From a virus: DNA of 31,228 nt. The stretch covers positions 1 through 31,228 of IMG/VR virus record IMGVR_UViG_3300009128_000939; one strand, 5' to 3'. Below the pieces are notes generated by a model. That model did no database searches. It was given only the letters and a program-made list of their open reading frames with translations, and was not told the origin of the DNA. A program made the translations under genes and the position numbers. Of this stretch, positions 9,901 through 26,403 are shown one piece after another; the stretch's first letter is position 1, and each line of letters starts with the position of its first letter.

Positions 9901-10225
9901 GCGGAACGCCGGTGAATACCGACACGGACCCGGAATGCTCTACGTCCTGCTTTTCAGACCACCGCATCCTGGCCTTTGTCCACCAGATTAAAGCCGTTGT
10001 GTCGCCGCTTGTGGCCTTCTGGTAAAGGGTCTGCGCTATCTTGGCGTTTGCTTTTGTGGCCGCCGTGTCCAGTTCTTCGCGGTAGTGTTCCCGTAAGGTC
10101 TTGGGCGCAACGCCTATCACCACCGCAATATCATCTTGCAGGATACCGCCCGCCGCCATAGCCTCTACCGTCTTGCGGCTTTGGTCTGTAGGTTCGTGCT
10201 TGGGCCTTCCACCTTTATCTTTCAT
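9887..10225 (-). CDS. Terminase small subunit-like DNA-binding protein
   Basis: 112 residues. The N-terminus KGGRPKHEPTDQSRKTVEAMAAGGILQDDIAVVIGVAPKTLREHYREEL is a helix-turn-helix of the kind used by small terminases to recognise the packaging site. The next helices (AATKANAKIAQTLYQKATSGDTTALIWWTKARMRW) match the usual oligomerisation region of this group. It is immediately upstream of TerL and coupled to the Mom-like gene by ATGA. It should bind pac or cos and load TerL. Confidence 0.85.
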   Translation of the reverse strand: MKDKGGRPKHEPTDQSRKTVEAMAAGGILQDDIAVVIGVAPKTLREHYREELDTAATKANAKIAQTLYQKATSGDTTALIWWTKARMRWSEKQDVEHSGSVSVFTGVPRDAD

Positions 10226-10932
10226 TCGGCACCCGTTGATTTTGGAGCGTGGCGGTCAGTGCTGCCCTGCCGCTGTGCCGCTGGAACGGCCATCGCCTGC
10301 TTGCCACGCTTAATGCCTTTGTACATGCCCGCACCCGCTTCCTCAATTGCGCTGAATGGCAATTCAGGGACGGTCAGCCTTTCTCGGCACGCCTTATCTA
10401 GAAAATAGATATACCTCATCTGGAAACCGGGCAATGTTTCGGAGCCGGAAAAATCCCTCTTGCTCGTCCCGTGCTTCGCCGCAACGCTACCATCTGCGAG
10501 ACGCACAATGGTACTGTTCTTCTTCAACCCACAAAGGACAAAGCCGCTGGCTCTGTAGATAGTCCCGTCCCCGCATTGAGTGCCGTCCGCGAAGGATACC
10601 ACCCACTTGATCTGCGGATATTGTCTTTTGATAAGCCGAAAGGCCACCCCTATTGCGCGGCTCTCGCTGTTACGCGGCAGCCTCTCTCCGAAGGCCATGC
10701 GATTTAGTTCCAGCATGTCGTTCCATTTGGCTCCGGCGACCAGACCCAACAAATTGCGCCTATCAATTGGAGGGCCAAACTGCATAGCACCCTCTAAGCG
10801 CCCATCAAGGAACACGCCCATATGCAGCTGACTATTCTGCACCACCTTGCCGCTGTAATGGATACGCCTAACAAGGGCCGCCGCGTCTTTTGCGGATATT
10901 GGCTCGACACGCAAATCTTTAGCCGACGCCAT
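10222..10932 (-). CDS. mom: Mom-like DNA adenine modification protein
   Basis: 236 residues from the ATG at 10932, which overlaps the ParB-like gene by 14 bp; an upstream extension to 11004 exists but lies inside that gene. The core (LELNRMAFGERLPRNSESRAIGVAFRLIKRQYPQIKWVVSFADGTQCGDGTIYRASGF) carries the motifs of the Mom family, GNAT-fold enzymes known from phage Mu. Mu Mom converts adenine in DNA to a carbamoylmethyl (acetamido) derivative that blocks many restriction enzymes. Length agrees with Mu Mom (about 240 residues). It sits between a ParB-like gene and terS, so modification would be made late, just before packaging. Activity on this phage DNA is inferred. Confidence 0.85.
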   Translation of the reverse strand: MASAKDLRVEPISAKDAAALVRRIHYSGKVVQNSQLHMGVFLDGRLEGAMQFGPPIDRRNLLGLVAGAKWNDMLELNRMAFGERLPRNSESRAIGVAFRLIKRQYPQIKWVVSFADGTQCGDGTIYRASGFVLCGLKKNSTIVRLADGSVAAKHGTSKRDFSGSETLPGFQMRYIYFLDKACRERLTVPELPFSAIEEAGAGMYKGIKRGKQAMAVPAAQRQGSTDRHAPKSTGAE

Positions 10933-11551
10933 ATTGCCCCACAAACATCTCACAAACGCGGGACAAAGCGTTCCCGTTCCCGTTTTCGTTTGGTGAGTCA
11001 ACAAACTCGCCCATCTCTTTGGCTATACGCAAGGCGTTAGAAACACTGTCGGCCTGCTCGTCGTGAAGTGTAAACGTCATTTGCTGGAAAGGTGACTTTT
11101 CACCATCCGGGAGGTCCGGGTATTCATCAATTGGCGTTGGGTTTAATGCGTCTAATTCGCCTTCATCGAAGCCAAGGGCTCCAATGTCAAACCCAAGTGC
11201 ATCTAACTCGCCGATCTCACAGCGCAACAAATCCAAATCCCACCCGGCGTTCAGGGCCAGCTTGTTATCAGCAATAACCAGGGCTTTGCGCTGCGCCTCG
11301 GATAAATGGTCAAGCGCGATACAAGGCACATCATCCATGCCAAGTTTCTGCGCCGCCAAAAGCCTGCCGTGGCCAGCGATAATTCCCCGATCCCCGTCAA
11401 TCAACAAAGGGTTGGTAAAGCCAAACTCCTTAATGCTGGCCGCTATCTGCGAAACCTGTTGCTCGCTGTGCGTCCGGCTGTTGTTGATATACGGAATCAG
11501 GTCAGAAACCGCGATATACTCAATTTCCTTTTTATCCACGGTAAAAACCAC
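10919..11551 (-). CDS. ParB/Srx-like domain protein next to Mom
   Basis: 210 residues from GTG 11551, with GGAG 10 bp upstream. The N-terminal 100 residues are a ParB-like domain: VSDLIPYINNSRTHSEQQVSQIAASIKEFGF, then the conserved box GIIAGHGRLLAA (56-67) and LDHLSEAQRKALVIADNKLA. In many phages this domain is fused to a DNA methylase; here it stands alone and is followed by an acidic linker and a short C-terminal domain. ParB/Srx domains bind CTP or ATP, and some act as nucleases. The adjacency to Mom suggests a partner role in DNA modification or target selection, but this is inference. It is not accompanied by ParA, so a partition role is unlikely. Confidence 0.85.
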   Translation of the reverse strand: MVFTVDKKEIEYIAVSDLIPYINNSRTHSEQQVSQIAASIKEFGFTNPLLIDGDRGIIAGHGRLLAAQKLGMDDVPCIALDHLSEAQRKALVIADNKLALNAGWDLDLLRCEIGELDALGFDIGALGFDEGELDALNPTPIDEYPDLPDGEKSPFQQMTFTLHDEQADSVSNALRIAKEMGEFVDSPNENGNGNALSRVCEMFVGQYGVG

Positions 11552-21033: not shown

Positions 21034-21060
21034 ATGCGCCGGATTTCCGAATATTGTTGA
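21034..21060 (+). pseudogene. Possible 5' stub of an interrupted gene
   Basis: A GGGCGGGGAAT ribosome-binding-like stretch precedes ATG CGC CGG ATT TCC, which stops after eight codons (MRRISEYC). It lies exactly at the left border of the methylase cargo. It may be the start of the gene whose tail (integrase) lies on the other side of the cargo. This is suggestive only. Confidence 0.2.
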
Positions 21061-21083
21061 GGCGTTTTTCTCGTAATGGGCCG

Positions 21084-23684
21084 GTGAACGACCTCTTAAA
21101 CCAGTCCCCTGGAAACAATCAGAAAAGCCAAATTGAATGCCTTGGGCTGATTTTCGAGAGTGAGGACGCGCGACGAGACCATTTTATAAAGCTGCTGACC
21201 GAGAAGCTGAAGGATCCCAATTTTCGGAACCAAGAAGGCTTTCCACAAGGCACCGACGAGGCGATTCTTGCGATGTCGGATCCACCCTACTACACGGCCT
21301 GCCCTAACCCGTGGCTCGAAGATTTCGTGAATCAGTACGGAACTCCCTACGGCTCGGCAGAGCAGTTTGCAAAAGAACCCTTCGCGTTTGACGTTAGTGA
21401 AGGAAGAAGCGGTATTTTTTACGATGCTCACAGCTACCATACAAAAGTTCCGCACAAAGCAATCATGCGCTACGTTCTTTATTATACAAAGCCTGGAGAT
21501 TTGATTGCTGACACTTTCTGTGGAACCGGAATGACGGGAGTGGCCGCACAGTTGTGTGGCAATAGAAAAGCTGTCGAAGACTTAGGCTATCGCGTTGACG
21601 AAAAGGGAACAATTTTTGAACCTGTTCATATTGCAGGAAAGATTGAATGGCGCGAGTTTTCGAAACTTGGCGAAAGAAAAGCCCTTTTAAATGATTTGTC
21701 CCCCGCAGCTGCATTTATTGCAGCTAACTACAACTCCAAGATCAATGTCGCGCGCTTTAAGCAAGAGGCAACTCAACTACTCGATGACGCAGAACGAGAG
21801 TTAGGTTGGATATATGAAACCAATCACAGCAGCTCGACAATAAAGGGAAAAATTAACTACATCATCTGGTCAGACGTTTTCACATGTCCAGAATGCGCAG
21901 GTGAAATTATTTTCTGGAAATCGGCCGTTGATCATAAATCCGGCTCTGTTCGCGACCAGATTGATTGTCCTCACTGCTCGGCGGGAGTGACCAAGAGAAC
22001 ACTGGATCGTTGCTGGACAACCTTCAATGACCCAAAGCTCTCACGGCCCATCCAAATCGCGAAGCAAGTTCCGGTTCACATTAACTACTCAATTGGCAAA
22101 ACTCGGTATGAAAAAGAGCCAGACGAAAACGATTTGGGCATTTCTGAGCGGTGTATGCAGGAGCTTGTTAAGTACGATTACCCCATCAAAGAATTGCCCG
22201 ATGGTGAAAAAACTGGCGAACCTATCCGAATGGGCATAAATTTTGTCCATCACTTCTACACGCACCGCAATCTCTTGGCGCTGGCGTTTCTTCGAAAGCG
22301 CGCCGAAAACGGTGTGTATAGTAATGCCCTAAATTTTCTCATAAATTCCTACGACTTGACACACAGCACAATGATGAGCCGTGTGATATTCAAGGGAGGT
22401 GGGAAAAAGCCAGTTCTGACTGGATATCAATCGGGAACACTATATTTTTCCTCTCTTCCCGTTGAGAAAAACATCTTCGAGGGAATTCGCAAGCAAAAAC
22501 TCAAAATTATAGTCGACTCGCTTGCGCTTGTTTCGTCGTCTCAAGCAATTCAGGCGAGCAGCGCAAGCCGCTTGAATGTTCCCGATTCATCAATTGACTA
22601 TCTTTTCATAGACCCGCCATTTGGCGCGAACATAATGTACTCCGAGTTAAATTTTCTCGCCGAATCTTGGTCAGGTGTTATGACCAATACTTTATCGGAA
22701 GCAATTGAAAGCAGAACTCAAGGCAAAAGCCTCGACGATTATCGGCGCCTCATGAGCTCAAGTTTTGCAGAGGCATATCGAATACTGAAGCCTGGGCGTT
22801 GGATGACTGTAGAGTTCTCTAATACCAAAGCATCAGTTTGGAATAGCATACAAACGAGCCTACAGGAGGCGGGTTTCGTTGTGGCTAACGTTTCCGCTTT
22901 AAATAAGAAGCAAGGCAGCTTCAACGCGGTAAACAATAAGACTTCAGTCAAGCAAGACCTAGTCATTTCTGCCTACAAGCCAAATGGTGGACTTGAAGAA
23001 CGTTTTATTAAATCTGGGGGCAGTGAAGAGTCAGCTTGGGACTTCGTGCGAACTCATTTGCGGGACCTTCCAGTCGTAAAATCAAGAGCAAATGAGCTCA
23101 CCTACATTTCCGAACGTGATCCTAGAATCATTTTCGACCGAATGGTCGCTTGGTTTATTCGACATAATGTACCAGTGCCGCTCTCAAGCCATGACTTTCA
23201 GGAAGGCCTTCGCACGCTATTCTCAGAGCGTGACGGTATGGTTTTCCTGCCGGAACAGGTCACCGAGTACGATCGTAAGCGTGCGCATGCAACGCAAGCA
23301 CCTCAGATAGAACTATTCGTTTCAGACGAGCGTTCGGCGATTGACTGGCTCATTGATTTCCTCAGCAAGCGCCCCTCGAGCTATCAAGACATTCACCCTG
23401 AGTTCACTACGCAGCTTGGCGCCGGATGGAAAAAACACGAGGAGAAGCCCGAACTTGCGGCACTCCTGGAGGACAATTTCCTACGCTACGACGGTAACCT
23501 AGACGTGCCAAACCAGATCCACAGCTACCTTTCTAGCAACTTTAAGGACCTGCGAGGACTGGAAAAGGACGACCCGCGTCTTAAGGCCAAAGCCAAGGAC
23601 CGCTGGTACGTGCCCGACCCCACCAGGGACGCCATACCTTTGCCGACATCCTTATGGAGAAGGGCGCGTCATTGCGGGATTTAA
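21084..23684 (+). CDS. Adenine-specific DNA methylase with Zn ribbon (COG1743/DUF1156-like), C-terminus replaced
   Basis: About 866 residues from GTG 21084; the frame is open to TTG 21054. Numbered from GTG, the order is: catalytic-type motif SDPPYYTACPNPW (65-77), SAM-binding DTFCGTGMTG (143-152), two zinc pairs CPEC (268-271) and CPHC (295-298), and a second motif IDPPFGANIMYSELNF (509-524). This is the layout of COG1743 methylases, often found in defence islands beside DUF499 ATPases and helicases that are absent here. The last 18 residues (IPLPTSLWRRARHCGI and the few before it) are out-of-frame integrase sequence, so the natural C-terminus is lost. The DNA is visibly richer in A+T than the flanking phage genes, consistent with recent acquisition. 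Whether the truncated enzyme works is unknown. Confidence 0.85.
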   Translation: MNDLLNQSPGNNQKSQIECLGLIFESEDARRDHFIKLLTEKLKDPNFRNQEGFPQGTDEAILAMSDPPYYTACPNPWLEDFVNQYGTPYGSAEQFAKEPFAFDVSEGRSGIFYDAHSYHTKVPHKAIMRYVLYYTKPGDLIADTFCGTGMTGVAAQLCGNRKAVEDLGYRVDEKGTIFEPVHIAGKIEWREFSKLGERKALLNDLSPAAAFIAANYNSKINVARFKQEATQLLDDAERELGWIYETNHSSSTIKGKINYIIWSDVFTCPECAGEIIFWKSAVDHKSGSVRDQIDCPHCSAGVTKRTLDRCWTTFNDPKLSRPIQIAKQVPVHINYSIGKTRYEKEPDENDLGISERCMQELVKYDYPIKELPDGEKTGEPIRMGINFVHHFYTHRNLLALAFLRKRAENGVYSNALNFLINSYDLTHSTMMSRVIFKGGGKKPVLTGYQSGTLYFSSLPVEKNIFEGIRKQKLKIIVDSLALVSSSQAIQASSASRLNVPDSSIDYLFIDPPFGANIMYSELNFLAESWSGVMTNTLSEAIESRTQGKSLDDYRRLMSSSFAEAYRILKPGRWMTVEFSNTKASVWNSIQTSLQEAGFVVANVSALNKKQGSFNAVNNKTSVKQDLVISAYKPNGGLEERFIKSGGSEESAWDFVRTHLRDLPVVKSRANELTYISERDPRIIFDRMVAWFIRHNVPVPLSSHDFQEGLRTLFSERDGMVFLPEQVTEYDRKRAHATQAPQIELFVSDERSAIDWLIDFLSKRPSSYQDIHPEFTTQLGAGWKKHEEKPELAALLEDNFLRYDGNLDVPNQIHSYLSSNFKDLRGLEKDDPRLKAKAKDRWYVPDPTRDAIPLPTSLWRRARHCGI

Positions 23685-23776
23685 TGGATGCGGGGGGATG
23701 GGCAGACCAGAAGTCAGCCATGAGATACACAACCAAGCGTGTGGAGAGGGTGCGGAAGGCGATGGAGATACGATAG
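23630..23776 (+). pseudogene. Tyrosine integrase C-terminal remnant
   Basis: A frame of 48 codons reads RHTFADILMEKGASL, then RDLMDAGGWADQKSAMRYTTKRVERVRKAMEIR and a stop. It holds the Arg of HxxR (in RHTFA), the GGW position equivalent to the H/W residue, and the catalytic Tyr in MRYTTK, as at the C-terminus of tyrosine recombinases. Everything upstream of RHTFA is missing and replaced by methylase sequence. No start codon suited to an independent gene is present. The phage therefore carried an integrase gene here that was destroyed by insertion or recombination. Confidence 0.85.
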
Positions 23777-23789
23777 ATGTAAAGGTTGA

Positions 23790-23927
23790 AATGCCGGGGT
23801 CTATGATCTGGGAGCCGCGTATCCGTCTGGTGATGCGTTCAGAAAACTCCCTTTGGAACTGAAGCAGGGTATCCCTTCATACATCAAGCAGAATGTGAAT
23901 TTAGAACGGTTAGAGAATGTTAGATAG
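23790..23927 (+). pseudogene. Unidentified gene tail upstream of hsdM-hsdS
   Basis: Forty-five codons open without a start codon between a TGA (23787) and TAG (23925-23927): NAGVYDLGAAYPSGDAFRK, then LPLELKQGIPSYIKQ and NVNLERLENVR. The stop overlaps the hsdM start by 11 bp, like two genes of one operon. It may be the 3' end of the gene that preceded hsdM in the donor (for example hsdR), but I do not recognise it. Confidence 0.4.
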
Positions 23928-26403
23928 TGTCACCAAGAAACGCATAGACGACTTACGCAACATTCTGGTTGGGAAACTACCAAGTCCGCAGAGTCAGGTG
24001 GAACAAATCACCACAGGACTGATTTACAAGTTCATGTATGACATGGATGAGGACGCAGTCGAAATGGGTGGTGTTCCATCCTTCTTTGTTGGTGATTATG
24101 AGAAATACTCTTGGAAGCACTTATTTGACCCTAAATTAGGGGGTGCAGATAAGGTGCAACTCTACAGTGATGCGATTGAGAATATGTATACCAATCCATC
24201 TGCACCACCTTTGTTCAGAGAGATTTTTAAGAACTCATTTCTTCCATTCAAAGACCCCTCGACCCTCAATATGTTTTTGAAAGAGGTAAATGAGTTTCAC
24301 TATTCTCATTCAGAAAAGTTGGGAGATGCATTTGAAGATCTTCTTTCCTCCATGGGGTCTCAAGGAGATGCAGGGCAGTTCAGAACACCACGGCACATAA
24401 TCGACTTCATTGTTGAGTTGGTGAACCCACAGAAGAATGAAACCATCCTGGACCCAGCATGTGGCACAGCAGGTTTCTTGATTTCATCCTATAACCGCAT
24501 TCTGTCTCAAAACACTGATAAAAAATTGGGTGACAAACTCAATGCATCAGAACGCAAACAAGTTGGTGACAATCTCGTTGGGTATGACATATCACCAGAT
24601 ATGACACGAATCTCTCTGGTGAATATGTATCTCCACCAGTTCGCAAGTCCTCAAATTCATGAATATGACACCCTATCATCTGAGGACAGGTGGAACGAAT
24701 ACTACGATGTGATTCTTGCAAATCCACCGTTCTTCTCACCTACTGGTGGCATCCAACCCCATTCACGATTTGGAGTGCAATCAACAAGGGCAGAGGTTCT
24801 GTTTGTCGATTACATCATGGAGCACCTTAAACCCAATGGTCGTGCAGGTATCGTTGTTCCAGAAGGTATCATTTTCCAAACAGGAACAGCATATAAAACA
24901 CTGAGAAAGAAACTTGTTGAGGATTGTTTGGTGGGGGTGATTTCTCTTCCAGCAGGTGTATTTAAACCATACTCTGGTGTGAAAACATCAATCCTTATTT
25001 TGGATAAGGAACTCAATCAAAAGTCACACAACATCTTTTTTGCAAAAGTTGAGAATGATGGTTTCAGTCTTGGGGCACAAAGAACACCCATTTCGGCAAA
25101 TGATTTACCAGATGTTCTATCGCAAATAACCGCATTTAGTGAAAGCAACGAATGTAATTTGCAAGTGGCAACAAAGGAGGAAGTCCTCACAAACAGAGAT
25201 GTTTCACTGAATGGTGCAACATACAAAATTTCGGAGTTGACCAACTCAGATTACGAGATGGTTAGTATCGGCAATAAAGACTACTTTGAAGTTTTATCTG
25301 GTGGGACACCAAAGTCTGATGAAACCTCATACTGGAACGGTCAATTGAATTGGATTTCACTTGTCGATTTACCAGCATCAAATTTGATTACGCAGATTCA
25401 TAACTCTGAACGCACTATTACTGAACTTGGATTAAAAAAGTCATCTGCAAAGATGATACCTGTGAACTCTGTGATTGTTTCTACTCGTGCAACAATTGGA
25501 AGAGTTGGGATTAACCGTATTCCGTTATCAACCAATCAAGGTTTCAAAAATATTGTCATTAAGGATGAGTCTCGTGTTTCTTGCGAATATCTCGCATACA
25601 TGATGACTAACCTAACAAACCAGATGTTGGAGTTGGCAAGTGGAGGCACTTTCAAAGAAATTTCCAAAACCAACTTCGTGTCATTAAGTATTCCTCTTCC
25701 ACCAATCGAAATACAGCAACAGATTGTCGATGAATTAGAGGGTTATCAGAAGATTATTGATGGGTGCAGACAGGTTGTTGAGAATTACAAACCAACCATC
25801 GACATTGACCCTTCATGGGAAACCAAGTCACTCGAAGAGATTAGTGAAGACTTCTCGAATGGTCTCAATTTTTCTAAAGAACAGGTAGGGCAAGGAAGTC
25901 GGTTCGTAAATGTAAAAGACCTCTTTAATCACAACATAATCGTTGAAGATAGTTCTTTGAAAAGAGTCCAAGTATCCGATAAGGAACTCTCAAAAAAACG
26001 ATTAAAAAAGGGGGATGTTCTCTTTGTTCGGTCATCAGTCAAGTATGAGGGTGTGGGGTATACAGCAATAATTGACGAATTATCCGAAGATACTGTGTTT
26101 GCAGGTTCCATTATCAAAATGTCACCGAGTCTAAATATAGTTAATCCCTTCTACCTAGGGGCACTCCTGAGAACACCGACATATCGCAACATCATAGTCT
26201 CTTTAGGTAATCGTGTAACGATTACAAATATTTCTCAAGACAGCATTAAATCAATAAAGGTTCCTGTCCCATCACTAGAAGAGCAAAATAAAATAGTGTC
26301 TGGTCTCAAAGAGGAAATGACATTTATTGAGGGTAATCGAACATTGATGGAATCATTCTCCCAAAAAATCCAAGACAGGATTAGCAAGGTTTGGGGTGAA
26401 TAA
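23917..26403 (+). CDS. Fused type I HsdM-HsdS modification protein
   Basis: 828 residues. N-terminal HsdM: GQFRTP (153-158), SAM motif I DPACGTAGFL (179-188), catalytic NPPF (269-272), then the usual AGIVVPEGIIF and PYSGVKTSILIL blocks to about 370. From about 440 the protein is HsdS: a first target-recognition domain (GGTPKSDETSYWNGQLNWISLVDLP, GFKNIVIKDE), the central conserved helix region PLPPIEIQQQIVDELEGYQKIIDGC (near 600), a second recognition domain, and the repeat VPVPSLEEQNKIVSGLKEEM. One polypeptide thus carries both methylation and two half-site specificities. No nuclease domain and no hsdR gene are visible, so it can only modify. The DNA is strongly A+T-rich relative to the phage backbone, indicating transfer. 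Confidence 0.9.
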   Translation: MLDSVTKKRIDDLRNILVGKLPSPQSQVEQITTGLIYKFMYDMDEDAVEMGGVPSFFVGDYEKYSWKHLFDPKLGGADKVQLYSDAIENMYTNPSAPPLFREIFKNSFLPFKDPSTLNMFLKEVNEFHYSHSEKLGDAFEDLLSSMGSQGDAGQFRTPRHIIDFIVELVNPQKNETILDPACGTAGFLISSYNRILSQNTDKKLGDKLNASERKQVGDNLVGYDISPDMTRISLVNMYLHQFASPQIHEYDTLSSEDRWNEYYDVILANPPFFSPTGGIQPHSRFGVQSTRAEVLFVDYIMEHLKPNGRAGIVVPEGIIFQTGTAYKTLRKKLVEDCLVGVISLPAGVFKPYSGVKTSILILDKELNQKSHNIFFAKVENDGFSLGAQRTPISANDLPDVLSQITAFSESNECNLQVATKEEVLTNRDVSLNGATYKISELTNSDYEMVSIGNKDYFEVLSGGTPKSDETSYWNGQLNWISLVDLPASNLITQIHNSERTITELGLKKSSAKMIPVNSVIVSTRATIGRVGINRIPLSTNQGFKNIVIKDESRVSCEYLAYMMTNLTNQMLELASGGTFKEISKTNFVSLSIPLPPIEIQQQIVDELEGYQKIIDGCRQVVENYKPTIDIDPSWETKSLEEISEDFSNGLNFSKEQVGQGSRFVNVKDLFNHNIIVEDSSLKRVQVSDKELSKKRLKKGDVLFVRSSVKYEGVGYTAIIDELSEDTVFAGSIIKMSPSLNIVNPFYLGALLRTPTYRNIIVSLGNRVTITNISQDSIKSIKVPVPSLEEQNKIVSGLKEEMTFIEGNRTLMESFSQKIQDRISKVWGE

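Follow-up and report, generated by a model that had tools for sequence, protein, structure and literature searches.

How does a phage come to carry the modification half of a type I restriction–modification system without its nuclease, and what use might it make of it? The question is raised by a linear IMG/VR record (IMGVR_UViG_3300009128_000939), of which the whole stretch analyzed here, hereafter the window, covers positions 1 to 31,228 (31,228 nucleotides). In this window, a single uninterrupted ORF of 828 amino acids (aa) on the plus strand (positions 23917–26403), designated hsdMS, encodes both a methylase and specificity domains. Although phage methylases acting against restriction have been described, where they come from is seldom clear.

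A Single-Chain Methylase with Two Target-Recognition Domains

According to Pfam, PADLOC, sequence alignment and a fold model, the hsdMS product is a single-chain type I-like adenine methylase with two target-recognition domains (TRDs). Its HsdM half (aa 1–440, 23917–25236, plus strand) features an N6_Mtase domain (PF02384, aa 133–437, E-value 1e-50), matches the PADLOC MTase_I profile over aa 2–437, with an N-terminus colinear with HsdM, and retains intact methylase motifs (DPACG at aa 179, NPPF at aa 269). It is followed on the same strand by TRD1 (about aa 445–592, 25249–25692), a central conserved helix region (IPLPPIEIQQQIVDELEGYQKIIDG..., about aa 593–636, 25693–25824; helix 597–623 in the fold model), TRD2 (about aa 637–785, 25825–26271) and a distal conserved HsdS helix with the stop codon (26272–26403; helix 787–826 in the fold model), two Methylase_S stretches being recognized by Pfam (E-value 7e-38). 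When aligned with about 27–28 homologues, HsdMS is colinear from end to end, its variable TRDs being bordered by conserved helices. The fold model (mean pLDDT 84, pTM 0.55, a value at which the positions of the domains relative to each other are uncertain) resembles solved M subunits (2okc, 5ybb, 2y7c_B) and the S subunit 1yf2.

A first-pass annotation made from the sequence alone had described this ORF as an HsdM fused to two TRDs and devoid of a nuclease domain, and both points stand: neither Pfam nor PADLOC found a nuclease domain in HsdMS, and the protein is colinear with HsdM and with whole-length homologues. A Type IIB/IIG single-chain R-M-S enzyme was thus ruled out, since the N-terminus aligns with HsdM and no nuclease family is matched. 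With respect to a type I system, the HsdM-type adenine methylase and an HsdS with two TRDs are present and the HsdR subunit is missing; with respect to Type IMS, M and S lie in one chain and a separate functional HsdR is absent. A scan for sigma-70 promoters returned no more matches than in shuffled sequence.

A Widespread Bacterial Arrangement

The same annotation had also treated the M-S fusion as notable in itself; it is in fact a common bacterial arrangement. Relatives of HsdMS are encoded at 76 genome loci, most of them aligning across all 828 residues, and an hsdR relative lies upstream in 69 of the 74 anchored bacterial loci, usually at most tens of bases away and usually coding for 820–860 aa. 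All the upstream genes in these 69 loci are relatives of one HsdR; in three examples, the encoded protein has HSDR_N_2, ResIII and SWI2_SNF2 domains, which identifies it as HsdR. Among the five loci without an upstream hsdR, four are at or near contig starts, and the last one (L072) has 10 kb of upstream sequence. On the Paracoccus plasmid pPZ02, a gene annotated as a DEAD-box helicase precedes an N-6 DNA methylase. The name Type IMS was introduced by Roberts et al. 2012 for an M-S fusion with a separate HsdR, on the basis of engineered EcoKI (PMC3510504). Judging from these loci, the M-S fusion with a separate HsdR is a widespread natural bacterial system that fits this description, and the present analysis documents such natural Type IMS-like systems as widespread in bacteria, although the name was first given to a laboratory construct.

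Other viral contigs also encode M-S fusions, and hsdR is present in all 13 of those having a readable upstream side. In one of these 13 (L188, 3437–5991), hsdR is split into two overlapping frames before hsdMS, which may represent the onset of its loss. Given the 69 of 74 bacterial loci and the 13 of 13 readable viral contigs with hsdR upstream, its loss in our phage is a derived state and, in the data seen, specific to this phage lineage.

A Remnant of hsdR Directly Upstream of hsdMS

When the HsdR of a SAR116 locus (L011) was used as a tblastn query, only its residues 785–821 (of 821) were found, at 23814–23924 of the window (73% identity over 37 aa, E-value 2e-12), the match corresponding to its exact C-terminus. 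This hsdR scar (23814–23927, plus strand) thus consists of the last 37 codons and the stop codon (23925–23927), and the hsdR frame shares 11 bp with hsdMS, an overlap also present in the SAR116 locus. At the DNA level, homology to several bacterial operons starts at 23821, crosses the hsdR stop without interruption and extends within hsdMS as far as about 25109, with 86–88% identity to SAR116 and Paracoccaceae loci. The remnant, which the first-pass annotation had missed, shows that the source operon once held a restriction half, since lost; on this evidence, our phage is one that took an R-MS operon and lost R.

Absence of hsdR from the Closed Genome

Sibling contigs match the window at 99.98–100% identity, and two of them (IMGVR_UViG_3300007511_001042 and IMGVR_UViG_3300009405_000049) close the genome at 39,031 bp (31228 + 7803, about 39.0 kb): one starts inside the right end of the window and continues into its left end, while 5,172 bp of the sequence bridging the two ends are also covered, independently, by the second. 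An HsdR tblastn search of the extra 7.8 kb gave a best match with an E-value of 0.24, and the ResIII and HSDR_N_2 profiles had zero matches in the window or the sibling contigs (all three records). The initial observation that hsdR was nowhere in view therefore holds for the whole closed map, including the 7.8-kb remainder, where an hsdR just beyond the window could have lain; a full hsdR outside the window is thus ruled out. Together with the 3′ scar, this closed map strongly supports the modification-only reading that had been put forward. No separate hsdM was found in the phage either. A chimeric or erroneous assembly is likewise ruled out, because an independent contig (L002) shows the identical arrangement, with 100% identity over 8,744 bp, across the junctions. 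As for the phage itself, relatives of its portal protein are found in phages of Bradyrhizobium, Myxococcus (Mx8), Rhizobium and Ruegeria.

Selection on the M Half and Exchange of TRDs

The M half is 87–91% identical to its marine alphaproteobacterial homologues (SAR116 and Paracoccaceae) and 93% identical to a truncated homologue (L021). Its pairwise dN/dS values against the four nearest homologues are 0.05–0.07, and the codon changes private to the phage are 31 synonymous and 7 nonsynonymous, for a neutral expectation, computed from site counts (971 N, 274 S), of about 78% nonsynonymous. As judged from these codon comparisons, the M half is under purifying selection, part of which may nevertheless have acted in the bacterial donor, prior to capture.

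The TRDs have no such close relatives. TRD1 is best matched by the TRD1 of L014 (58% identity) and is 51–55% identical to domains in TRD2 position in L073, L055 and L046, while no relative of TRD2 exceeds about 32% identity among the fetched loci. Since the M half is so conserved and the TRDs are not close, the suggestion that specificity could change by swapping TRDs gains support from comparison, and domain exchange is visible across the HsdMS family. In L014, L073, L055 and L046, one TRD type is found in first position in some HsdMS proteins and in second position in others, a pattern suggestive of domains moving between positions.

Neighboring Scars and Other Modification Genes

Two further modification genes accompany hsdMS in this phage. 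An orphan BREX-3-type methylase of 876 aa (PglXI, 21054–23684, plus strand; PADLOC PglXI, 1171 bits) has intact catalytic motifs, but its last ~70–90 aa are replaced by an out-of-frame integrase scar, the C-terminus being lost exactly where the recombinase piece begins. It is 57% identical to the MTase of a Leisingera brxF-brxC-MTase-helicase-pglZ (BREX-3) operon; relatives at 47–57% identity include some that adjoin BrxC or BrxH genes, and none were found among the INPHARED phages (50,697 records). PADLOC detected no brxF, brxC or pglZ among ten right-half proteins, and none of the ORFs in the closed map is as long as BrxC (>1000 aa). The third gene encodes a Mom-family DNA modification protein (10222–11004, minus strand; PF25680, E-value 1e-50; phrog_1384, E-value 2e-49) and adjoins a gene for a ParB_N-like protein (10919–11551, minus strand). 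GC contents are 40% for hsdMS, 48% for PglXI and 55% for the structural region, a difference that also marks hsdMS and PglXI as cargo.

In the integrase scar (23627–23776, plus strand), a tyrosine recombinase gene is represented by its C-terminal 49 codons (PF00589, profile positions 133–170 of 172, E-value 2.3e-7, over the cut-off). The scar retains the terminal RYTT as well as the last part of the HxxR box, lies directly upstream of the hsdR scar, and its sequence also occurs in the independent contig L002. Two sources were considered for it: an integrase regularly preceding hsdR in donor islands, an idea that was not supported (isolated cases only), and the integrase of a sibling phage record (G013), which was ruled out because its C-terminus differs. 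Either a formerly temperate lifestyle of the phage or acquisition together with the cargo may account for this fragment.

Proposed Function and Alternative Explanations

In our opinion, hsdMS probably stems from a bacterial R-MS (“Type IMS”) operon acquired by the phage, of which only the modification half was retained, and the enzyme would mark progeny DNA as self. After acquisition of the operon, hsdR would have been lost except for its last 37 codons. Expressed during infection, HsdMS would bind a bipartite target via its two TRDs and methylate adenines within it, so that progeny DNA would pass as self in hosts whose type I system shares the target. Methylating phage DNA in advance to protect it from a host type I system, as already proposed in the first-pass annotation, is the most likely use of the gene. 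As a second layer, the orphan PglXI, possibly against BREX-3, and the Mom-family protein would add protection against other restriction systems.

Standard type I enzymes contain two M subunits. The HsdMS fusion provides one M per two TRDs, hence the natural family must dimerize, release M, or act asymmetrically. As a precedent for the proposed protection, phage lambda grown with an engineered EcoKI M-S fusion, without HsdR, escaped EcoKI in vivo; in vitro cleavage by the fusion required extra HsdM (PMC3510504). Since no separate hsdM was found in our phage, the active assembly of HsdMS is uncertain.

At face value, the locus could also be read as decaying cargo, i.e., an R-MS/BREX fragment gained by illegitimate recombination, with useless methylase genes not yet lost. 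Three gene fragments do abut within about 300 bp, the selection recorded in the M half may be older than the capture, and the truncation of PglXI, which may point to partial decay of this cargo, counts against a protective role. Yet hsdMS keeps its full length and its motifs, few of its phage-private codon changes are nonsynonymous, it is found at 99.98–100% identity in several metagenome contigs, and two large methylase genes would presumably be costly to retain unused in a 39-kb genome, so that we regard this explanation as unlikely. HsdMS might instead recruit a resident host HsdR and thereby direct restriction with a new specificity against competing phages or against host chromosomal DNA lacking the modification, the DNA of the phage itself being methylated. 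The similarity of its M half to systems having HsdR is compatible with such a recruitment, as is the assembly of the EcoKI fusion with chromosomal HsdR/HsdM in vivo (PMC3510504), but the phage lost hsdR rather than keeping it, which makes the idea quite improbable.

Slightly more doubtful still is a composite scheme, in which three layers of self-marking drawn from defense islands (the HsdR-less Type IMS methylase, the BREX-less BREX-3 methylase and Mom) would form one kit, with HsdMS also docking host HsdR and redirecting the restriction motor to new targets. Finally, orphan methylases can influence gene expression (reviewed in PMC12707154), and HsdMS could regulate phage or host genes epigenetically instead of countering restriction; its placement among other modification genes and the loss of the restriction half alone favor protection, and we give regulation the least credence of all.

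Comparison with Known Systems

Natural HsdR-HsdMS operons (SAR116, Paracoccaceae, Pelagibacteraceae, Cloacimonadota and others) share the single-chain M-S layout (mostly 780–860 aa) and the hsdR-hsdMS junction with our phage, which differs from them in its truncated hsdR and in its TRDs. The engineered EcoKI and CC398-1 fusions (PMC3510504, PMC6158711), in which M is joined to a two-TRD S, are methylase-active without HsdR, although the EcoKI fusion, which let modified phage escape restriction, probably uses some free HsdM (PMC3510504); unlike HsdMS, both are laboratory constructs from other sequence families. Among phages, the N-6 DNA methylase of Acinetobacter phage vB_AbaSI_5 is type I-like and a 976-aa protein of the gut phage MT836552.1 matches M + S; both are stand-alone, with no hsdR annotated or found nearby, but are only about 28–33% identical to HsdMS. 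As for BREX type 3, the phage PglXI is alone and truncated at its C-terminus, whereas the Leisingera MTase lies inside a BREX-3 operon.

A phage methylase limited to modification is therefore of a known kind; what is new here is a domesticated Type IMS system whose deleted restriction gene is still legible, along with a BREX-3 methylase beside hsdMS and a Mom-family gene in the same genome. We found no description of such a domesticated Type IMS phage arrangement in the open-access literature. With an hsdR fossil preceding the methylase, the passage from a bacterial immune system to a viral disguise can be read straight from the sequence, while a phage BREX-type methylase without BREX makes viral evasion of BREX through self-methylation testable. 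The HsdM halves encoded by E. coli plasmids (CP042621.1, NZ_CP116482.1 and others), which are 51–54% identical over aa 1–438, could offer a tractable laboratory relative.
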